From Candidatus Sungiibacteriota bacterium (GTDB lineage: Bacteria; Patescibacteriota; Minisyncoccia; Sungbacterales; SURF-37): 37,185 nucleotides of DNA. The translations under genes and the position numbers were made by a program. The stretch spans positions 1 through 37,185 of the forward strand of contig JACPMF010000019.1 of assembly GCA_016186145.1 (NCBI GenBank), written 5' to 3'. Below are positions 8,896 through 32,819 of this stretch, piece by piece. Every line of letters starts with the position of its first letter. Positions within the stretch are counted from its first letter, which is position 1. The notes beneath the pieces are model-generated. The model had not been told where the DNA came from. It saw only the letters and a list, made by a program, of their open reading frames with translations, and ran no database searches.

Positions 8896-9981
8896 TCACG
8901 TATACCGCGACACATTAAGGACGATGCCGGTAGCAAAAAGAGTCGTAATAAGAGCCGTTCCTCCATAACTGATAAACGGAAGCGGAATTCCCGTAAGCGG
9001 CAAAAGTCCGGATATGGCACCCATGTTAATAAACGCCTGAAAGCCGATACTGGCGGCGAAGCCCGCGACAATAAGCTTTGAAAACGTATCGGGGGCTGAT
9101 CGCGCAATCAAAATGCTCCGCCAGACAAAGAAAACAAAAAACCCGATGAGAACCATTACCCCGAAAAACCCAAACTCCTCCGCCGCAATCGCGAAAATCG
9201 AATCACCGATGGGTTCGGGGAGATAATTATATTTCTGCAGACCCTGACCATACCCTCTTCCCCAAAATCCTCCGCTGCCGATCGCGATCAGGGCCTGGCG
9301 TATATGATAGCCGATGCCGGAAGGATCGACATCGGGATTTAAAAAGACGGCAAACCTGGCTAACCGATAAGGCGCAAGCTGTACCAAGGCGGCCAAAGAC
9401 AACATTCCGAGAACAAAGAGAGAAACAATTTGGGAAACTTTCCCGCCCCCCAAAAAATAAAGGGCCGTTGCGGTAAATGCCACCACCAAGAGAGTTCCGA
9501 TATCCGGCTGAAGCACGAGCAACACGCTTACAATCCCAAGAATCACCACGAACGGCAAAAACGCCCGATACGTATCTTTAGGCGAGTCGCGACGGCTCGA
9601 AAGCCAGCTTGCAAGATATATGACCAACGCAATTTTCAAAAATTCGGACGGCTGAAAAGAAAAAAAACCAACATCCAGCCACCGCGAAGCGCCTCCATGA
9701 CGAAAACCGACTCCAGGAAAAAAAACGAGTGCCGTAAGAACGAGCGAGATGACCATCAAAAGCAACGCAAGCTTTCTCCATGCTTTATACGGCAAACGCG
9801 ACGTGATAAAAAGCGCGCAAAGACCGATACCGAGAGAAAGCAGGTGCCGGAGCGTATAATAATACGTCGTCCCAAAATTACGATCTGAAATTACCACCGA
9901 CGCGGAGGAAATAATAAGTACGCCGGAAAAAACCAGAAGAAGAATTACCGTAAAAAGCGGACGATCAACGGGACGAGACAT
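8896..9981 (-). CDS. ftsW: SEDS-family peptidoglycan polymerase FtsW
   Basis: Polytopic inner-membrane SEDS protein of 361 aa that polymerises lipid II at the division site. Ten or so hydrophobic segments are visible. Family motifs include GGASRWLDVGFFSFQPSEFLKIALV, the conserved acidic-region VLLVLQPDIGT, GYHIRQALIAIGSGGFWGRGYGQGLQKYNYLPEPIGDSIFAIAAEEFG and the terminal LPFISYGGTALI. Linkage to murG and murD favours FtsW over RodA, and a second SEDS gene lies at 21.6 kb. Confidence 0.9.
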   Translation of the reverse strand: MSRPVDRPLFTVILLLVFSGVLIISSASVVISDRNFGTTYYYTLRHLLSLGIGLCALFITSRLPYKAWRKLALLLMVISLVLTALVFFPGVGFRHGGASRWLDVGFFSFQPSEFLKIALVIYLASWLSSRRDSPKDTYRAFLPFVVILGIVSVLLVLQPDIGTLLVVAFTATALYFLGGGKVSQIVSLFVLGMLSLAALVQLAPYRLARFAVFLNPDVDPSGIGYHIRQALIAIGSGGFWGRGYGQGLQKYNYLPEPIGDSIFAIAAEEFGFFGVMVLIGFFVFFVWRSILIARSAPDTFSKLIVAGFAASIGFQAFINMGAISGLLPLTGIPLPFISYGGTALITTLFATGIVLNVSRYT

Positions 9982-18664: not shown

Positions 18665-18670
18665 ACCCGC

Positions 18671-18934
18671 CTAAGTTTTTGCATTAAAGTAGTTATAAAG
18701 CGTCCTTTGGATGTACTGACGGCCCCACCCTGTTTTGAAAAACCGTTCTCTATTCTCTGCACCTTCTCGATTTGGAAAAGCTTCATAGTAAATAAGCTTA
18801 AGTGGAATTCTTGTCTTTGTAGCAAATGAAAGTCCTTTGTTGTGCATGGAAATGCGCTTTTTCAAATCGTTTGTACAACCAATATACATCTTAGCATCTT
18901 TTTGGCTTCTCAAAATGTAGACATATGAAAACAT
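18671..18934 (-). CDS. GIY-YIG endonuclease-domain protein
   Basis: Compact GIY-YIG nuclease of the UPF0213/YhbQ-like group, about 87 aa. The GIY and YIG strands are YVYILRS and YIGCTNDLKKRI. The catalytic-region Arg (KKRISMHN) and Glu (NREGAENRERFFK) are in place. I start at MFSYVYILRS. It sits between the two transketolase subunit genes, 7 bp after the C-subunit stop side, which is unusual for a metabolic operon. Such stand-alone proteins are common in CPR genomes; role unknown. Confidence 0.85.
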   Translation of the reverse strand: MFSYVYILRSQKDAKMYIGCTNDLKKRISMHNKGLSFATKTRIPLKLIYYEAFPNREGAENRERFFKTGWGRQYIQRTLYNYFNAKT

Positions 18935-19009
18935 ATGCAAAAATTTAGGCGGGCATACTTAAATACTTATTCCGACCGGGGCAAAAACCCGGTCGTGAAA
19001 ATATTCAAA

Positions 19010-20173: not shown

Positions 20174-20188
20174 AAAATTTGATTCGTC

Positions 20189-20259
20189 CCGATTTTGTCT
20201 CCGGCTCCGCCGGAGCTACAAAATCGAGGATCCTCGATAACCGCAAGCGGTTATCGGGA
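20189..20259. repeat. Cloverleaf palindromic element TCCCGA-TCGAGGATCCTCGA-TCGGGA, copy 1
   Basis: Outer arms TCCCGA and TCGGGA pair. A central palindrome TCGAGGATCCTCGA separates two hairpin lobes: TTTTGT-ctccggct...agct-ACAAAA and TAACCGC-AA-GCGGTTA. The copy at 25551-25634 keeps the constant parts but has different lobes. Confidence 0.8.
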
Positions 20260-25435: not shown

Positions 25436-25550
25436 AACTTATGTCATTAACTTAATTTATAATCTTCGATTACCTTTCCAAAATTTTGGTATGCCGGCAT
25501 ACCTTACTTTCCTATTCCGCTAGGCGGAAAAGTATCATCGAGTCCATAAG

Positions 25551-25634
25551 TCCCGATTTTGTTCCCGCTGAAAGCGGGATTGTAAAATCGAGGATCCTCG
25601 ATAATCTATCCCAAAATTTTGGAGATTATCGGGA
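25551..25634. repeat. Cloverleaf palindromic element, copy 2 (insert 1 of split 5S)
   Basis: TCCCGA...TCGAGGATCCTCGA...TCGGGA constant parts as in copy 1 at 20189-20259. Lobe 1 is built on TCCCGCT-GAA-AGCGGGA and lobe 2 on TAATC...CCAAAATTTTGG...GATTA. Inserted between CCATAAG and CTTT of the 5S. Confidence 0.85.
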
Positions 25635-25638
25635 CTTT

Positions 25639-25719
25639 TCCGCCAGAAGCGCCATGCCGGCCGGCCCGCTTCGCCGGAGCTTCAGCGAGGCGAGCAGGCG
25701 GGGATCCGCCTTCGGCGGA
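25639..25719. repeat. Palindromic element TCCGCC...GGCGGA (insert 2 of split 5S)
   Basis: 81 bp with ends TCCGCC and GGCGGA and an inner GCCCGCTTCGCCGGAGCTTC / GCGAGGCGAGCAGGCGGG arm pair. Related AGCTACGGCGAAGCGGG sequence lies between ssb and rpsR. Separated from insert 1 by only four 5S bases (CTTT). Confidence 0.75.
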
Positions 25720-25730
25720 CACTTCTCTGT

Positions 25731-25894
25731 CCCCGTACCAAATCTTTTGTATACTGGCGTACCCTACTTTCCCAGGAAGCCATGCTTCCAAGTATCATCG
25801 GGCTCAAATGCTTTCACTTCTCTGTTCGGAATGGGAAGAGGTGGGGCACATTTGAGTAAAACACCAGTAAACAGAAAATTTGGTACGGGGCAAG
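25731..25894. mobile_element. Inverted-repeat element of the ACCCCGTACC family carrying a complete 5S gene
   Basis: Ends CCCCGTACCAAATCTTTTGT and the complement of AAAATTTGGTACGGGG. The same ends occur at 1776-1932 and 32820-33048, where no 5S is inside. Here the interior is a whole 118-nt 5S gene. Inserted in loop C of the outer 5S (CCGA/ACAGAG in rRNA sense). Confidence 0.8.
25752..25869 (-). rRNA. rrf: 5S rRNA, intact copy nested in the element
   Basis: 118 nt. Helix I TACTGGTGT / ACGCCAGTA, helix II CTCAAATG / CATTTGAG, the conserved CCATTCCGAACAGAGAAGTGAA loop-C region and helix IV GGAAGC-ATG-GCTTCC are all present. Encoded on the same strand as the 23S and the outer 5S. Being uninterrupted, it is the likelier source of functional 5S. 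Confidence 0.95.
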
Positions 25895-25902
25895 TCGGAA
25901 TG

Positions 25903-25976
25903 TTCCCGTTTTGTCTGCGAGCCGTAAGCGAACAGTTACAAAACGCGATCCCTTACTCAGCTTGCTGAGTATGGGA
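25903..25976. repeat. Cloverleaf-like palindromic element (insert 4 of split 5S)
   Basis: TTCCCG...GGGA ends, lobe TTTTGT...ACAAAA around GCGAGCCGTAAGCG, then ACTCAG-CTTG-CTGAGT. Layout follows the TCCCGA cloverleaf family but the central palindrome is altered. Interrupts helix III 5' strand (CCTCTTCC/CATTCCGA). Confidence 0.7.
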
Positions 25977-26037
25977 GGAAGAGGTGGGGCACCTATGGAT
26001 TAAACACCGGCAAATAAAATTTTTGATGGTTTTACCT

Positions 26038-26056
26038 AAAACCCATCTTAAAAATG
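26038..26056. repeat. Solo end of the AACCCATCTTAAAAATG palindrome
   Basis: AAACCCATCTTAAAAATG matches the left arm of the element at 1054-1216. No partner arm is visible nearby. Lies just 3' of the 23S gene. Confidence 0.6.
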
Positions 26057-26193
26057 CATTTGGAAAGTGTACTTTGAGCGGGGAGTAAAAATGATCTGTT
26101 AGTACCTCTCGGCTAAAACGCTTGCGCGCCTTACACCTAAGGCCTATCGACGTGATAATCTCTCACGGATCTATGATACCTAATCTTGGGGTG

Positions 26194-26226
<33 letters not shown>

Positions 26227-26615
26227 CTTCCGAACATAGCTACCCAGCGATGCTCCTGGCGGAACAGCTGGTAGACCAGAGGTTCGTTCATCCCGGTCCT
26301 CTCGTACTAAGGACAACTCCCCTCAAGTATCGACGCCTGCAGTAGATAGGAGACCAACCTGTCTCACGCTTGTTTGCTTTGCAAACCGCGGAACTACGCT
26401 GACTTCACGCAGACCTACGCAGAAAAATTCCGCGTTTGCCCGCATCCGATCTGCGACCGTCCGCGATGCTTAAGCATATCCTCTGTTACCAGAGGGATTG
26501 GACTATACCACTATCCTAGCCACTAGGGTTTAGCCACTAGCGATTAGGACAACCGACATGTTAGCAATTCATTATATGAATTACTCTGCCGCTTTCACGA
26601 CAAGTCTCTACGGGG

Positions 26616-26786
26616 TTAGCTTTCCAAAATACTTATTAAGTGCTTTATCATCCTTTTAGCTCTTTCTCGCTCATCTTCAGACAAATTCTTTACCACTCCT
26701 CCGAGTCGGCTTAAGAGATTTGCCACCTCTACAAACTCTTTGGATGCTTCCTTATCTTCTCCAGAGTTAAATGGTTCTTTCTCCAT
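26616..26786 (-). CDS. 56-aa helical protein encoded in intron 4 (unknown)
   Basis: Too short for the ORF track. Reads MEKEPFNSGEDKEASKEF then a helical EVANLLSRLGGVVKNLSEDERERAKRMIKHL, ending LESstop. AAGGA lies 9 nt before the ATG. It occupies the place used by LAGLIDADG genes in introns 2 and 3, between the P4/P5-like string and the P7 string, and its stop directly precedes CCCCGTAGAGACT. No homing-endonuclease motif. Could be a maturase-like helper, a cargo gene or chance. Confidence 0.5.
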   Translation of the reverse strand: MEKEPFNSGEDKEASKEFVEVANLLSRLGGVVKNLSEDERERAKRMIKHLISILES

Positions 26787-26987
26787 AAAATTATTCCTTA
26801 ATAATTATACCAACTAACTTCCCTCGGTATTATCCTACTAAACCCAGATTGGTTAATCAATTTCCGCGTCAATCCGCGTTGCCATCCGCGTATATCCGCG
26901 TGTTTTGACTTCAGTCAAAACAATAGGACTCCACCGATATGAGTCGGTTTATTCGATCCCGCTTACGCGGGAAAGCCGCCGTGCTTG

Positions 26988-27019
26988 CCCCGTACCGAGC
27001 TTTACTCTGGTGCGGGGTG
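26988..27019. repeat. Short ACCCCGTACC-family hairpin in the P1 loop of intron 4
   Basis: CCCCGTACCGAGCTTTACTCTGGTGCGGGG: arms of the ACCCCGTACC family with a minimal interior of about 12 nt. Confidence 0.65.
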
Positions 27020-27032
27020 TTTAACAAGTTCC

Positions 27033-27931
27033 TATCTAAAACTTGCTAAAAGATTTCGATGTCAATTTCAGGCTCTTTTTTTGACGGTTTGACACTTATA
27101 TTACGATTACTCGTAAAGTAGACTATACCTTTATTCAATCTCCGCAGACTGAATACCGACGTCTTATACAACAAGACTTGCTTCTTGTATCTGACCCAAC
27201 ACTGATTGGATCAAGTCGTTACGGGGATTACAAATCTTATGGGTCATTGATGGAATTATAAATGGTTCAATAATATTGTTGAACTTTTGATACTCATGCC
27301 TTCCGATTCTTATCTTGAACCTTGCTCTGTCTTTGATTATCGTTGCGGAAATCTTGAATCTCCGCGCTAGAAATTCAACAATTCGTTCTTGGTCTTGAAG
27401 CAAGAAATTATGAGTACTTATGGTGTACGAAGCTTTCGTATTTGAACCATCGTCCATAAACCATATTGCGATTGCTCTCGGAATCAAATAATCAAACAAA
27501 TCTTGAGGAAATATTTTAACCGCATCCTTATAGAAATAATGATACAGTGCTCCAAGTTCTTTGAGTGTTTTGGTGTGGAAGTACCACGAATAATGATCTT
27601 TGTTTCGCTTGGCATCATGCCAAACTTTGATTCTTCGCGGCTCCTTTAACACCAGATTCTCAAGTTGAGCATATTTCCAGAAGACGTATTCTTTCTGTTT
27701 CTCACTTTGATGAATTCGCAATCGTGCGCTTATGGGATATCGTTTTCCAACTGAACGGCACTCAAGACGAGCATCGCCCAACAATGATCCTATAATCACA
27801 TCAACTTGATGTGACGGAAATAACGATTGTAATCTTCCCACGGTATGGTCCATACAATTTTATTGTATCATAAATTTGCATGGATTCCACCGTTATGAGT
27901 CGGTTTAATCTGGGCTCAGTAGTTTTCACTA
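27033..27931 (-). other. Group I intron 3 in 23S (near position 2584) with LAGLIDADG gene
   Basis: 5' exon CTGGGU pairs with guide GCCCAG (U-G wobble at the cut). Core strings ACGGTGGAATCC, CATACCGTGGGAAG, CCCCGTAACGACTTG and AGGTATAGTC are present. The 3' end lies close to 27033-27036; only about 8-12 nt of exon (around GGAACTTGT) separate it from intron 4. Position in the peptidyl-transferase region. Confidence 0.8.
27164..27853 (-). CDS. LAGLIDADG homing endonuclease of intron 3
   Basis: 229 aa with two LAGLIDADG-type helices: VDVIIGSLLGDARL (about residues 18-31) and AIAIWFMDDGSN (about 132-143), the acidic metal ligands being GD and DD. A monomeric enzyme that would cut an intronless 23S allele to spread the intron. 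MDHTVGRL is encoded by the intron core string ATGGACCATACCGTGGG, and CNPRNDL by CCCCGTAACGACTTG, so the reading frame uses ribozyme core sequence at both ends. Confidence 0.9.
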   Translation of the reverse strand: MDHTVGRLQSLFPSHQVDVIIGSLLGDARLECRSVGKRYPISARLRIHQSEKQKEYVFWKYAQLENLVLKEPRRIKVWHDAKRNKDHYSWYFHTKTLKELGALYHYFYKDAVKIFPQDLFDYLIPRAIAIWFMDDGSNTKASYTISTHNFLLQDQERIVEFLARRFKISATIIKDRARFKIRIGRHEYQKFNNIIEPFIIPSMTHKICNPRNDLIQSVLGQIQEASLVV

Positions 27932-28016
27932 ACCCAGCTCGCGTATCTTTTTAAATGGCGAACAGCCATACGCTTGGGAGCTTCTTCACCCCCGCGCTAA
28001 GATGAGCCGACATCGC

Positions 28017-28845
28017 TGTCGTTATTTGTCTTCCGTTACCGGAAGGATCGGACTATATCTTCATCCCACCTTTAATGGGAGTTGGCGTTTTAGCTCTCCA
28101 TGTTCTGGAGAACTCCGGTCAACTTCTGACCAAGTCTCTACGGGGTCATAACTCAATTTATACTTCATCGAAGGAATAATATGTTCAGAAATTAATTGAT
28201 TAAATTTCTTAATACTTTCCTTCAAAAATCTTAGTCGATAATAGGATTTATCTTTATTTATGGTCGTTTCCAAACCCAAAACTTTTAACATTCCCATCAA
28301 TTTTTCTTGATCGGAATGGCTGAACTGTTGGGTATTAAGATAAACATCTCTATCGCGGCATCTGCTTCCGTCATCCATAAACCACACAGCAAGTGAAATT
28401 GGACCGAGTTGAATATCTGGTATTCGTTTCTTTCCGCCCTCATAGAATAATTCATGCATTCGCGATAATTCTGGATGCTGCTGTGTATAGAAACGATATG
28501 CTATCCGATGCCCATTTCCATACCGTGATTTTGGAATTCCGCCCGCAATATTTTTGAGTACAGAATATTTCCAATCAACGTACTCTTTTGCTCTTATGGA
28601 ATGGTTTATCTCGAGAAAAGCATCTTTACGCCCTTTTAGTTTGCGCAAATAGCCGTCTCCTAAGAGTGTTCCTATTATCAGAGATTTTTGTAATTGAGTT
28701 AGACTTCCCACGGTATTGTCCATATTAGGTATTTTACCATATGGAGTCCACCGTTATAAGCCAATATTTTATTCGAATTTCCGCTCCTAACGGATTGATT
28801 CGAACGGCTAATGCCGTTGCTGGCATGGCGCCCCGATGTTGTTTG
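28017..28845 (-). other. Group I intron 2 in 23S (after position 2500) with LAGLIDADG gene
   Basis: 5' exon GGCACCT faces guide GGGCGCC (one mismatch, U-G at the splice site). The 3' exon resumes CGATGTCGGCTCATC after a terminal G. Core strings ACGGTGGACTCC, ACAATACCGTGGGAAG, CCCCGTAGAGACTTG and AAGATATAGTCC. 829 nt. Insertion lies in the central loop of the peptidyl-transferase centre. Confidence 0.87.
28061..28723 (-). CDS. LAGLIDADG homing endonuclease of intron 2
   Basis: 220 aa. LAGLIDADG helices KSLIIGTLLGDGYL (about residues 13-26) and SLAVWFMDDGSR (about 110-121). Related to the intron 3 enzyme in layout and in the shared C-terminal IIPSM motif. The N-terminus MDNTVGSL is encoded by the P4/P5-like core string, and DPVETWSE near the C-terminus by CCCCGTAGAGACTTGG, so coding and ribozyme constraints overlap. 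Confidence 0.9.
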   Translation of the reverse strand: MDNTVGSLTQLQKSLIIGTLLGDGYLRKLKGRKDAFLEINHSIRAKEYVDWKYSVLKNIAGGIPKSRYGNGHRIAYRFYTQQHPELSRMHELFYEGGKKRIPDIQLGPISLAVWFMDDGSRCRDRDVYLNTQQFSHSDQEKLMGMLKVLGLETTINKDKSYYRLRFLKESIKKFNQLISEHIIPSMKYKLSYDPVETWSEVDRSSPEHGELKRQLPLKVG

Positions 28846-28885
28846 AGGTGCCGAACTGCGCCGTCGCTGTGGACGCTTGGGCGCA

Positions 28886-28921
<36 letters not shown>

Positions 28922-29137
28922 AATCTTTGGCCTTGTTCTAGCAAGTACCATCGGTTCACTAAGTTCTGCTTTCGCACCTGCTCGGCATGTCCGCCTCGCA
29001 GTCAAGCCGGCTTTTCCCTTTACGGGTCCGACGCGGTTTCCATTCGCGCTAAGCCGACCTTTAAACTCCTCCATTACTCTTTAGGAGGAAAATGCCCCAT
29101 TCAAACTGCCCACCAGACACTGTCTCAGTTGGGTTTC

Positions 29138-29227
29138 ACCACGAAGCCCGCAATAATGCAAATCTACGAATGCATCAGAATGCTACGAATAATTTATTCG
29201 CAATTCGCATTTTGTGAACACTGTGGT
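29138..29227. repeat. GAAT-type palindrome in 23S (near position 2210)
   Basis: Outer CACCAC/GTGGTG arms enclose ATAATGCAAATCTACGAATG ... ATTCGCAATTCGCATT. Lies in a peripheral helix between CTAACCAGTTGGG and AAACCCAACTGAGACAGTG (rRNA sense). Confidence 0.8.
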
Positions 29228-29506
29228 GTTCCCAACTGGTTAGAATACAAGTTTTCACAGAATGGTATTTCACTGACGGCTCCGTCCCATCCGAAAACAG
29301 GACCTCAACGCCTCCCATCTATGCTACGCAGTAAAAACTTATACCCAATATCAAGCTACAGTAAAGCTCCCGGGGTCTTTTCGTCTAACTGCAGGTAACC
29401 TGCATCTTCACAGGTACTGTATTTTCACCGGGCTCCTCCTTGAGACAGTCCCCCGATCGTTACGCCATTCGTGCGCTTCGGAACTTACCCGAAAAGGAAT
29501 TGCGCT

Positions 29507-29830
29507 CAACTTTGTTACAAGAATCTAAAAACTAAAAAGTAGAATCTAGAATCTGGACGAGACATTTCTGCTCGCCTCTGCATATTACTATGCAGTTCGG
29601 ACTATATCTTCCGAGTACACTTAAACTCGGTTCGGCGTGTAGTCTCTACGGGGTCCCTCGATAAACTCGGGACTTCCCTCGGTATTGTCCAAAATCCTGT
29701 CTGAAATTTTGGATGTTCACCGATATAGCTCCGCCGTCGCCTTACGGCTATGGACGGATCCTTGATTTTGTAACTCCTCGATAAACTCGGAGACAAAATC
29801 GGGACAAATTTTACTAAGGCAAATCAATTC
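29507..29830 (-). other. Group I intron 1 in 23S (after position 1931), no protein gene
   Basis: 5' exon CTAAGGT pairs with guide GCCTTAG (U-G wobble at the cut). The 3' exon resumes AGCGCAATTCC after the terminal G. Core strings TATCGGTGAACATCC, AATACCGAGGGAAG, CCCCGTAGAGACTACACGCC and AAGATATAGTCC. 324 nt. Carries a partial TCCCGA/GGATCC cloverleaf palindrome (TTTTGT...ACAAAA lobe) in its 5' third. The site is the classical I-CeuI/L1931 region. Confidence 0.87.
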
Positions 29831-30041
29831 ACCTTAGAACGATTATAGTTATCGCTGACATTGACGAGGGCTTAACATCTCACGCAATAAAAAATTGATG
29901 TAATCTCATTCCCATCACAAAAATGTTTGACCTTCTCGCATCGGTCAGGCGTCACCTCCTATACATCCTCTTACGAGTTAGCAGGAGGCTGTGTTTTTGG
30001 TAAACAGTCGCCAGGGGTTCTTTTGTTGCAGGCGCGCGCCC

Positions 30042-30128
30042 CGCACGCTCATCAGCGAATTACGAATCAGATACGAATATACGAATTCGTAATATTCGCA
30101 AGAGCTTCGCTATTCGTTGATAGCGTGC
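30042..30128. repeat. GAAT-type palindrome in 23S (helix 63 region)
   Basis: GCACGCTCATCAGCGAATTACG pairs with TATTCGTTGATAGCGTGC, enclosing GAATATACGAATTCGTAATATTC. Located between AAGTTCGCGATAAGGC and the following helix, where E. coli has about nt 1710-1750. Confidence 0.8.
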
Positions 30129-30676
30129 GAAGCACGCGTCAAGCCTTATCGCGAACTTACGGCTGCTTTTTTGCCTAGTTCCTTAAGGAGGACTCACCCG
30201 TTCGCCTTGGTGCACTTACACCAACCCACCTGTGTCGGTTTTCGGTACGGTCACCCAGCGGATAATCTTAGAAGCTTTTCTTGGAGGCCTGCTTTACCGA
30301 ATTTCGTCCCGCAAAACGGAACGATTTTCGCTCTGCTTGAGGCCGGGCATAACCCCCGCTGCCGGATTTGCCTGGCAGCGCCCCTTACAGCCCGAACGCA
30401 AATCCAATAATGCGCCCGGCATACTAAACCCCGTCACTCCATCGATCCGCTGGATGGTGCTGGAATATTAACCAGCTGTCCATCGACTTCGGCTTTCGCC
30501 ATTGCCTTAGGCCCGACTAACCCTTGGATGATTGTCATTGCCAAGGAAACCTTGGGTTTACGGCGTGCCGGACTTTCACCGGCATTGTGGTTACTTGTGC
30601 CAACATTCTCTCTTCCCTACGCTCCAATTCCCCTCGCGGGTGAATCTTCACTGCATAGGAAATGCTCTCCTACCGC

Positions 30677-30820
30677 ATCGCTCCTCGCTACTGCTCGGTC
30701 GCTTAATATAATGCGAATCTACGAATATATGCGAATGCTACGAATGTTGTATTCGCGGTATTCGCATACCAATTCGCATTATTCGCATTATGAAAGCTCC
30801 GAACAAAAGTGAGGAGCGAT
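30677..30820. repeat. Nested palindromes in 23S (near position 1175)
   Basis: Outer ATCGCTCCTCGC / GAGGAGCGAT arms, inner GAAT-type palindrome at about 30709-30791 (AATGCGAATCTACGAATATATG ... ATTCGCATTATTCGCATT). Replaces a short hairpin loop of the normal molecule. Confidence 0.8.
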
Positions 30821-31458
30821 ACCCGCAACTTCGGTACTTTGCTTAGCCCCGATAAATTTTTAGCGCAGGGACTCTAGACGAGTGAGCTGTTACGCACTCT
30901 TTAAAGGATGGCTGCTTCTAAGCCAACCTCCTCGATGTCTGAGAATCCCCACCACCTTTAACACTGAGCAAAGATTTAGGGACCTTAGTTTGCGATCAAC
31001 GGCTGTTTCCGTTGCGCACGACGGAGCTTAGCCCCCGCCTGCTGACTGCCGGAATAACTCGCTTGCGCATTCGGAGTTTGATTGGTCAAGGCGAGTTTCC
31101 CCGCTCTTGACCATCCAGTAGCTCTACCTCGCAGCGCGCATGATCCGACGCTAGTCCAAAAACTATTTCGGAGAGAACCAGCTATTTCCAGGTTCGATTA
31201 GCTTTTCACTCCTTACCACAGGTCATCCGAAGGCGTTGCACGACCAACCGGTTCGGGCCTCCCCCGCGGTTTTAACCGGGGTTCACCCTGCCCATGGCAA
31301 GCTCACCTGGTTTCGGGTCTTTTGGATTCTACCTAAAGACATTAGACAATAGGTGCTAGATTTTAAAACATAAAATAAGAAGCAAAAAACTTTACAAAAT
31401 CTTTAACTACCTGCAGACTAAACCCAATCTGGTTCTTTTCCCAAACGGAGGAATATAT

Positions 31459-31563
31459 ATGCTAGTTACAATGCTAATCATTATCAGCGGCGTTCTTTTA
31501 GCCTGCATAGTATTTTTATTTCTTATTATCAAAGGTATCGTTGGAATCTTGATTGAACGATAA
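31459..31563 (+). CDS. 34-aa single-span membrane peptide inside the 23S cassette
   Basis: MLVTMLIIISGVLLACIVFL then FLIIKGIVGILIER. A strong Shine-Dalgarno (GGAGG) sits 6-7 nt before the ATG. The product is almost wholly one hydrophobic helix with a basic/acidic C-terminus. An AACAGGCC-TAT-GGCCTGTTTTT terminator follows 10 nt after the stop. Runs antisense to the rRNA. Small hydrophobic type I toxins have this shape, but so do many unrelated peptides; function unknown. Confidence 0.6.
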   Translation: MLVTMLIIISGVLLACIVFLFLIIKGIVGILIER

Positions 31564-31572
31564 CTTTTACCA

Positions 31573-31596
31573 ACAGGCCTATGGCCTGTTTTTATG
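31573..31596 (+). terminator. Terminator of the 34-aa peptide gene
   Basis: AACAGGCC-TAT-GGCCTGTT followed by TTT; intrinsic terminator within the 23S cassette. Confidence 0.75.
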
Positions 31597-31802
31597 TTCT
31601 AAAATCTAACACCTAAAATCTAAGGTCTTAAGCGCGCTATTCACACTTGGTTTCCCTTTGCCTCGGTGCCGTAAGCACCTAGACGAGTAGAATTCAAAAA
31701 CTCGTTGGCTCATTCTTCAATAGGCACCTGGTCACCCTTGCGGGCTCCCAGTCCTTGTAAGCGTATGGTTTCAGGTACTATTTCATCGCCCTCATCGGGC
31801 TG

Positions 31803-31841
<39 letters not shown>

Positions 31842-32029
31842 GTTCCGTTAGTATTTAGCCTTAGGAGACTAGTTCTCCCTGCTTCCCGCGCAGTCTCCAT
31901 ACGGCGCGGTACTCAAGAATAATTCAGAGAGCATAAGACCGTTTTCGCGTACAGGACTATTACCTTCTTTGGTGCGCCTTTCCAGGCGTCTTCTGCTAAC
32001 GAAGCCTTAATTTTTATACTCTCCCCGAT

Positions 32030-32147
32030 TGCTCCCTCCTCCGCTCCTCGCTGCGCTCGGAGCTGTGGAGGGCGAGACTCATTGCAAAAGATACTATTGC
32101 AATACTCGCCCTCCGAAGCTCTTGCGAAGCAAAGAGCGAAGGGGGGC
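32030..32147. repeat. GC-rich hairpin insertion in 23S (near position 280-300)
   Basis: CTCCGCTCCTCGCTGCGCTC and GGAGGGCGAGACTCATTGCAAAAGATACTATTGCAATACTCGCCCTCC: an inner near-perfect hairpin inside outer purine/pyrimidine arms. Confidence 0.7.
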
Positions 32148-32263
32148 TCGGACGAACTACTCTTACAACTGCAATTTAAATCACTTGATAAATCAAGAAA
32201 TAAAATTGCTCTGGGCTATTCCCTTTTCGCTCGCCGCTACTAAGGGAATGCGCTCCGCACATT

Positions 32264-32350
32264 CATCAACGAATTACGAATTTTGTACGAATTTACGAAT
32301 AAACAAACTTGTAAATTCGCATATTCGCAGTAGATTCGTTATTCGTTGAT
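32264..32350. repeat. GAAT-type palindrome in 23S (near position 210)
   Basis: ATCAACGAATTACGAATTTT pairs with GATTCGTTATTCGTTGAT; the same arms as the copy upstream of recA at 6429-6514. Lies between GAGGAAAAGAAAG and TTAGTAGCGGCGAGCG. Confidence 0.85.
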
Positions 32351-32414
32351 AAAAGGCGAAGCCTTTCTTTCTTTTCCTCCGCTTACTGAGATGTTTCACT
32401 TCAGCGGGTATCGC

Positions 32415-32544
32415 GAGCGCTGCTTACGCAGCTAAACTAAAAATGAAAAACTTAAAATTAAAATTTAAGGAATCGTGAAAATTTTTCGCCCACCATTTTT
32501 AATTTTTCATTTTAAACTTTTAACTTAGCTGAGAAAGCAGCGCT
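32415..32544. repeat. AT-rich hairpin insertion in 23S (near position 130-160)
   Basis: AGCGCTGCTT and AAGCAGCGCT arms enclose AT-rich sequence in which AAAAATGAAAAACTTAAAA and TTTTTCATTTTAAACTTTTAA are mutually complementary. Confidence 0.75.
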
Positions 32545-32819
32545 CATCGCTGATTTCTCAGCGATGGGTTTCCCCATTCGGAAATCGCCGGATCAAAGGT
32601 TGCTTGACACCTCCCCGACGCTTATCGCAGTCACGCCACGCCCTTCATCGCCTACGGAACCCTAGGCATCCACCATACGCCCTTATTATTACTCCCCGCC
32701 CAAAACACACTTTGTTTTGAACGGTTTTATTTTTAGGTTACCTGTATTAAATTTTCAAACTGCTTACCTTACCAACCATCGTCTACTCCCAAAAACAGAC
32801 GACGACCGATAAGAATTTA

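Follow-up and report, generated by a model that had tools for sequence, protein, structure and literature searches.

A 5S rRNA gene interrupted by hairpin elements, one of them carrying a complete 5S gene, and recurrent nesting of RNA genes in Sungbacterales

Double-hairpin elements (DHEs), as found in fungal mitochondria such as those of Allomyces, are non-coding, dispersed sequences made of two adjacent hairpins, and we know of no fungal mitochondrial DHE with gene cargo or a nested replacement. Fungal mitochondria also harbor mobile endonuclease open reading frames (mORFs), which have given rise to gene hybrids in atp6 of Allomyces and in atp6, atp9, cox2, and nad3 of Glomus (PMC3630166). 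In bacteria, a survey of inserts in the 16S and 23S ribosomal RNA (rRNA) genes of the candidate phyla radiation (CPR) described non-intron inserts that encode GIY-YIG proteins, with all GIY-YIG inserts lying outside introns, and recorded no insert of at least 100 bp among 645 5S genes (PMC11270868). Expanded 5S rRNAs, in which one to two segments of 13 to 109 nucleotides (nt) occur in expressed or coexisting 5S, were reported by Stepanov and Fox (PMC7812874). Here we describe a 5S rRNA gene that is interrupted by four structured inserts, one of which contains a second, complete 5S gene. The locus lies in a 37,185-nt contig (JACPMF010000019.1; the window) of a Candidatus Sungiibacteriota bacterium of the order Sungbacterales, whose repeat-rich 980-kb draft genome (G000) comprises 24 contigs and is 99% complete. 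For a protein of the window, the closest named matches were to genomes of Patescibacteria/Parcubacteria.

When the four inserts were cut out, a 118-nt 5S rRNA remained on the minus strand, spread in five pieces over positions 25492 to 26012 (Table 1). This length, claimed in the initial annotation, was reproduced on recomputation, and under the same cut all four junctions were free of target duplication and of base loss, as had also been stated. In the outer RNA, the inserts follow nt 36, 44, 55, and 59. On the minus strand, the 23S rRNA gene, which ends at about position 26092, is followed by the five-piece outer 5S gene. The second 5S, nested in insert 3, scored 69.1 bits against the Rfam model and was the sole 5S in the genome above the Rfam cut-off; a search with the 5S model would report the inner gene alone and miss the nest. 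As a single strand, the outer/nested 5S region was predicted to fold into a tree of hairpins (z, -9.35).

The outer gene was compared with a consensus of 16 relatives' 5S copies and the nested gene, the outer gene itself being left out. It formed 37 of the 38 consensus pairs, changed helices included, which indicates that it evolved as a 5S and bears out the past selection as an RNA that had been read from paired helix changes. Three of the 45 columns invariant in all relatives were altered (G81T, G97A, and G106A), a number that leave-one-out relatives did not reach (two breaks at most, mostly none), and the pair-aware score of 145 was near the bottom of the range of 126 to 176. With three invariant positions lost, the outer gene looks like a recently dead shell, formerly a 5S. 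The central 40 nt were identical in the outer and nested genes, as the initial annotation had noted. The same block was also identical in relative G011 and had 0 to 3 mismatches in 11 of the 16 relatives' copies; the identity therefore reflects ordinary conservation across the order rather than recent copying. The idea that the nested gene was recently copied from the outer one was rejected for this reason and because the outer gene was 77% identical to the nested gene and 80% identical to the 5S of other families.

Table 1. Positions of the 5S nest and associated features in the window
Feature	Position	Strand	Remarks
Outer 5S, piece 1 (nt 1-36)	25977..26012	-	Part of 118-nt join
Outer 5S, piece 2 (nt 37-44)	25895..25902	-	Part of 118-nt join
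Outer 5S, piece 3 (nt 45-55)	25720..25730	-	Part of 118-nt join
Outer 5S, piece 4 (nt 56-59)	25635..25638	-	Part of 118-nt join
Outer 5S, piece 5 (nt 60-118)	25492..25550	-	Part of 118-nt join
Outer 5S unit with flanking stem arms (25477-25487 / 26016-26026)	25477..26026	-	Inverted repeat, 91% complementary
Nested 5S rRNA gene, 118 nt	25752..25869	-	Rfam RF00001, 69.1 bits, 1e-12
Insert 1, type-1 double-hairpin element (TCGAGGATCCTCGA midpoint), between AAG and CTT	25551..25634	-	
Insert 2, type-2 double-hairpin element	25639..25719	-	93-97% copies elsewhere in genome
Insert 3, hairpin unit with complete 5S; arms 25731-25760 / 25861-25890, tail 25891-25894	25731..25894	-	
Insert 4, double-hairpin element (GATCCC midpoint), in loop C	25903..25976	-	
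23S rRNA gene, same operon, with large inserts	26092..32695	-	Rfam RF02541
Hairpin element with GIY-YIG gene (ORF 18671-18940)	18666..18953	-	Arms CCCGCCTAAGTTTTTGCAT / ATGCAAAAATTTAGGCGGG; Pfam GIY-YIG 4e-15
Additional type-1 double-hairpin element, intergenic	20187..20259	+	

The inserts had been described as four palindromic elements. All are structured, but insert 3 is palindromic only in part, and inserts 1, 2, and 4 are double hairpins, each with two adjacent hairpins and ends like TCC..GGA. Inserts 1 and 2 are members of double-hairpin families with dispersed copies, and insert 4 is of like design. Elements of this kind share the two adjacent hairpins and the dispersed copies of the fungal DHEs; the host differs, and so, probably, do the sequences. 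Copies were located by family patterns, since a strict double-hairpin detector missed most of them. The type-1 midpoint TCGAGGATCCTCGA occurred 13 times in the genome, and seven of these midpoints lay within tRNA (transfer RNA) or 5S genes, which make up a small share of the genome; the flanks were mostly AG/C (the slash marks the insertion point). A type-3 element (GCGAAAAGC..GCTTTTCGC plus a second hairpin) was present in tRNA-Leu, -Val, -Lys, and -Ala regions. Elements within elements were seen at two places (G000:C22 and G000:C8), where a longer structured element (TCCCGCAACTTCCGCG...) occupies the loop of a type-3 element at AG/CT. Insert 3 consists of 30-nt arms around a 5S gene and a 4-nt tail, CTTG in the RNA sense, that also occurs in G006; its flank CATTCCGA-CTTGCCCCGTACCAAATTT is common to G006 (exact) and G003, where it encloses a different 5S.

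The inserts resemble IS200/IS605/REP-type elements in having hairpin ends and no target-site duplication. The Y1 transposase (PF01797) had no match in G000, in a search that found it in 6 of 14 control genomes, and mobilization by IS200/605 or REP systems was rejected on that basis. These observations agree with the earlier view that ordinary transposition does not account for the locus. Rfam searches of positions 25440 to 26090 gave no match to an intron up to an E value of 10 and, apart from the nested 5S, no other known RNA in the inserts; positive controls at 29578-29840 of the window and in tRNA-Asn were detected. The type-1 midpoint was not found in IMG/VR viral contigs.

Remains of 5S-in-5S nests were found at 5 of the 17 5S loci of the order, compared with none of 26 loci from the class's other orders (one-sided p, 0.006). 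The five loci are those of G000, G006, G007, G009 (which has two upstream shells), and G012, whose shell is incomplete or degenerate. This recurrence in relatives excludes chance for the 5S nest. Eight relatives without a 5S match were searched as candidates for further split genes and were rejected, since no counterpart of the 3' end of the 23S gene turned up in any of them; most likely, their rRNA contigs are simply absent. Nesting of tRNA-Thr-CGT was likewise recurrent, being found in seven of nine genomes (G000, G001, G004, G007, G008, G019, and G022, and not in G011 or G013), a count that leaves out G003, which has upstream fragments only. G013 contains two Thr-CGT lineages at separate loci, and both lineages were found nested in either order elsewhere. 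The nested Thr-CGT copies of G001 and G022, which belong to different families, share 99% identity but not their surroundings, an indication of horizontal supply.

In G000, an intact tRNA gene was found within an interrupted tRNA gene of the same isoacceptor for Ser-TGA, Thr-TGT, Thr-CGT, Val-GAC, Ile-TAT, Arg-TCT, Lys-CTT, and Glu-CTC. The same held for a Val-CAC nest, with three layers by acceptor pairing, and a three-layer Leu-CAG nest; in a three-layer tRNA-Leu nest (G000:C9:19400-20300), the outermost and innermost genes were about 92% identical over nt 26-85 and the middle gene differed. The single-contig genome G008 contained Ser-TGA, Thr-TGT, and Tyr-GTA nests, together with Thr-CGT and Thr-GGT nests whose shells have lost the anticodon arm. 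Shell and nested isoacceptors agreed in every nest with a readable shell anticodon. After joining at junctions picked by eye, 9 of 14 nested shells were called by ARAGORN as tRNAs of the expected anticodon, as was a fifteenth joined sequence, an intron-containing tRNA-Asn. An automatic acceptor-pairing test, which overlooks shells with a broken D arm, gave 6 of 45 nests in G000, compared with 0.59 in shuffles (maximum, 3 in 300); in G008 it gave 4 of 30 (shuffle mean, 0.58; maximum, 4), a result that is weak alone. Insertion sites recurred in the D stem at GAG/C and TAG/C and between anticodon bases 35 and 36.

Small GIY-YIG nuclease genes were found in hairpin elements of similar design. In G000, six of seven such genes lay between inverted arms, several with CCCGTTA..TAACGGG-type ends, which also occur on tRNA-carrying inserts. 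Among relatives within the order, 14 of 29 GIY-YIG loci had such arms, compared with 0 of 59 control placements. Broken tRNA-Ser shells of G008 contain GIY-YIG genes adjoining the intact tRNA-Ser-TGA. In G004, a tRNA-Ala shell, for which a 3' half was not found, has in its 5' half an element that carries a GIY-YIG gene and an intact tRNA-Ala-CGC on opposite sides of a GGATCC midpoint. The idea that GIY-YIG elements are always inside tRNA genes was rejected, as many are intergenic. The link between GIY-YIG nucleases and nesting is a correlation. Two further placements were noted: a type-1 element with GIY-YIG cargo at the 3' end of a uvrB-like gene, adjoining repeated UVR-motif sequence (G000:C8:51264-51588), and a hairpin-bounded GIY-YIG gene inside the 3' part of a 23S rRNA gene (G009:C9, match 9535-9735).

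The outer gene is probably the former functional 5S of the operon, broken by scarless mobile hairpin elements, one of which brought a complete replacement 5S. Of the three options left by the initial annotation, disruption of the gene with takeover by the nested copy fits best, with the refinement that one of the inserts brought the replacement with it. In the proposed course of events, a hairpin unit with a replacement gene would enter the very gene that it replaces; the old gene would die, and transcription of the old operon would take in the nested copy, which its own flanking stem would set free. Because the insert replaces what its insertion breaks, the insertion would be viable in one step, with no lethal intermediate. 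At the window's locus, three of the inserts are small empty double-hairpin elements and the remaining one is the 5S-bearing unit that would now do the job, and the shell would afterwards be free to gather further empty elements and to decay. More speculatively, mobility may be powered by small GIY-YIG nucleases carried in elements with similar ends. The nested copies are not obviously resistant, and re-invasion could have built the multi-layer nests, including those with three layers. We tentatively propose, as a possibility short of an even chance, a natural bacterial cleave-and-rescue element, in which GIY-YIG-driven hairpin units destroy tRNA and rRNA genes and persist through replacement, serially and horizontally across the order.

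The nearest working analogy is the mORFs. As here, a mORF enters an essential gene and supplies a working substitute for the part that it breaks, apparently by horizontal transfer, but protein genes are affected and the 3' end alone is replaced (PMC3630166). The Sungbacterales nests instead involve whole RNA genes, are delimited by hairpins, are bacterial, and often have the nuclease outside the insert in question. What the inserts carry as replacements are a whole 5S and whole tRNAs of the same isoacceptor, and homing-type nuclease genes, absent from the window's four inserts, are present in similar-ended elements of G000, G004, and G008. Synthetic cleave-and-rescue systems (e.g., PMC7951863) share the logic of a nuclease directed against an essential gene and a linked functional copy; they are engineered, whereas here cleavage is putative and resistance of the nested copy is not evident. 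The CPR survey covered the same bacterial radiation, did not mention tRNA, and described no rescue copies (PMC11270868).

Several points weigh against disruption and replacement. The shell, the inserts, the intact nested gene, the recurrent tRNA/5S nesting, the matching isoacceptors, and the lineage difference between shell and nested gene are findings at the level of sequence, from which expression, the order of events, and nuclease action are inferred. The four inserts of the window's 5S lack any nuclease gene, and a large number of GIY-YIG elements lie between genes. At the insertion site, the nested 5S does not differ from the shell and is thus not a resistant copy, which implies that rescue need not confer resistance. 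Finally, the outer gene is well preserved, and continued function would fit too. Such function is assumed if the inserts are structured introns of an unknown kind that are excised at the RNA level with rejoining of the ends, the outer and nested 5S and the shell tRNAs all being functional. The scarless junctions, the predicted independent folding of the inserts, the 37 retained pairs, several perfect shell tRNAs, and the intron-like anticodon-loop sites, one such site being used by a group I intron in tRNA-Asn of the same genome, favor excision. We nevertheless consider it quite unlikely, since the inserts match no intron family, the outer 5S has lost three invariant positions, and no sole-copy essential RNA gene split by a hairpin element alone, which would prove splicing, was found. 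Moreover, several of the order's shells lack parts or have degenerated (the G012 5S and the G008 Thr-GGT and Thr-CGT shells), so that nesting does not depend on splicing. The inserts could also be retained, or be cut without ligation like 23S intervening sequences, in an expanded or fragmented outer 5S that still serves in ribosomes. RNase III does cut some bacterial 23S inserts without ligation (PMC11270868), and the segments of expanded 5S rRNAs occupy the same loops as here, with no nested complete 5S found in that report (PMC7812874); the four inserts, however, total about 400 nt, far above the known segments, and include a complete 5S, which makes this explanation highly improbable.

Horizontal capture without a dedicated nuclease, by which recombination would trap an incoming homologous tRNA or 5S in the resident gene and the hairpin elements would be unrelated passengers, is unlikely. 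Homology would account for the isoacceptor match, and lineage swaps and 99% identical nested copies in distant genomes are as expected under capture, but the boundaries fall at closed stems, fixed sites are used again and again, and cargo-free and GIY-YIG elements have like ends. Passive decay, in which duplication of RNA genes came first and inactive palindromic repeats later piled up by chance in the spares, appears very unlikely. Although some shells are degenerate and the repeats are present elsewhere in the genome, an intact copy of the same isoacceptor lies repeatedly inside the spare, and the number of acceptor-pairing nests in G000 exceeded the chance expectation. An assembly artifact, conceivable in a repeat-rich 24-contig draft, can practically be dismissed, as independent assemblies, including that of single-contig G008, have the same architecture.

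If essential RNA genes were disrupted and replaced in this way, the nests would bear on how such genes evolve. tRNA and 5S genes are usually regarded as passing by vertical descent and as difficult to replace; in these genomes, replacement appears to have occurred repeatedly, with the shells recording the events, and the nests make it testable how essential RNA genes are swapped without a lethal intermediate. They may be a natural counterpart of engineered cleave-and-rescue systems and suggest a role for many orphan GIY-YIG genes of Patescibacteria. They also serve as a warning that standard annotation calls the inner gene only. No published description of this nesting was found, nested tRNA genes in Patescibacteria included, in a search outside which most subscription papers and preprints lay, and novelty is accordingly provisional.

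Further observations concern other RNA genes of G000. No tRNA-Cys, tRNA-Ala(TGC), or clear initiator tRNA was detected; the genes may be split, intron bearing, or located in assembly gaps. The sole tRNA-Asn (GTT) found (G000:C17:9200-10600) has its anticodon split, near a hairpin-element site, by a group I intron that carries an HNH-type ORF. The 23S rRNA gene of the window has a number of large inserts, among which are a group I intron and two LAGLIDADG ORFs (27164-27853 and 28061-28723). In a cluster of tRNA genes for Gln, Lys, Tyr, Leu, and Met (G000:C3:91300-92900), CCA is encoded, unlike in most tRNA genes of this genome.
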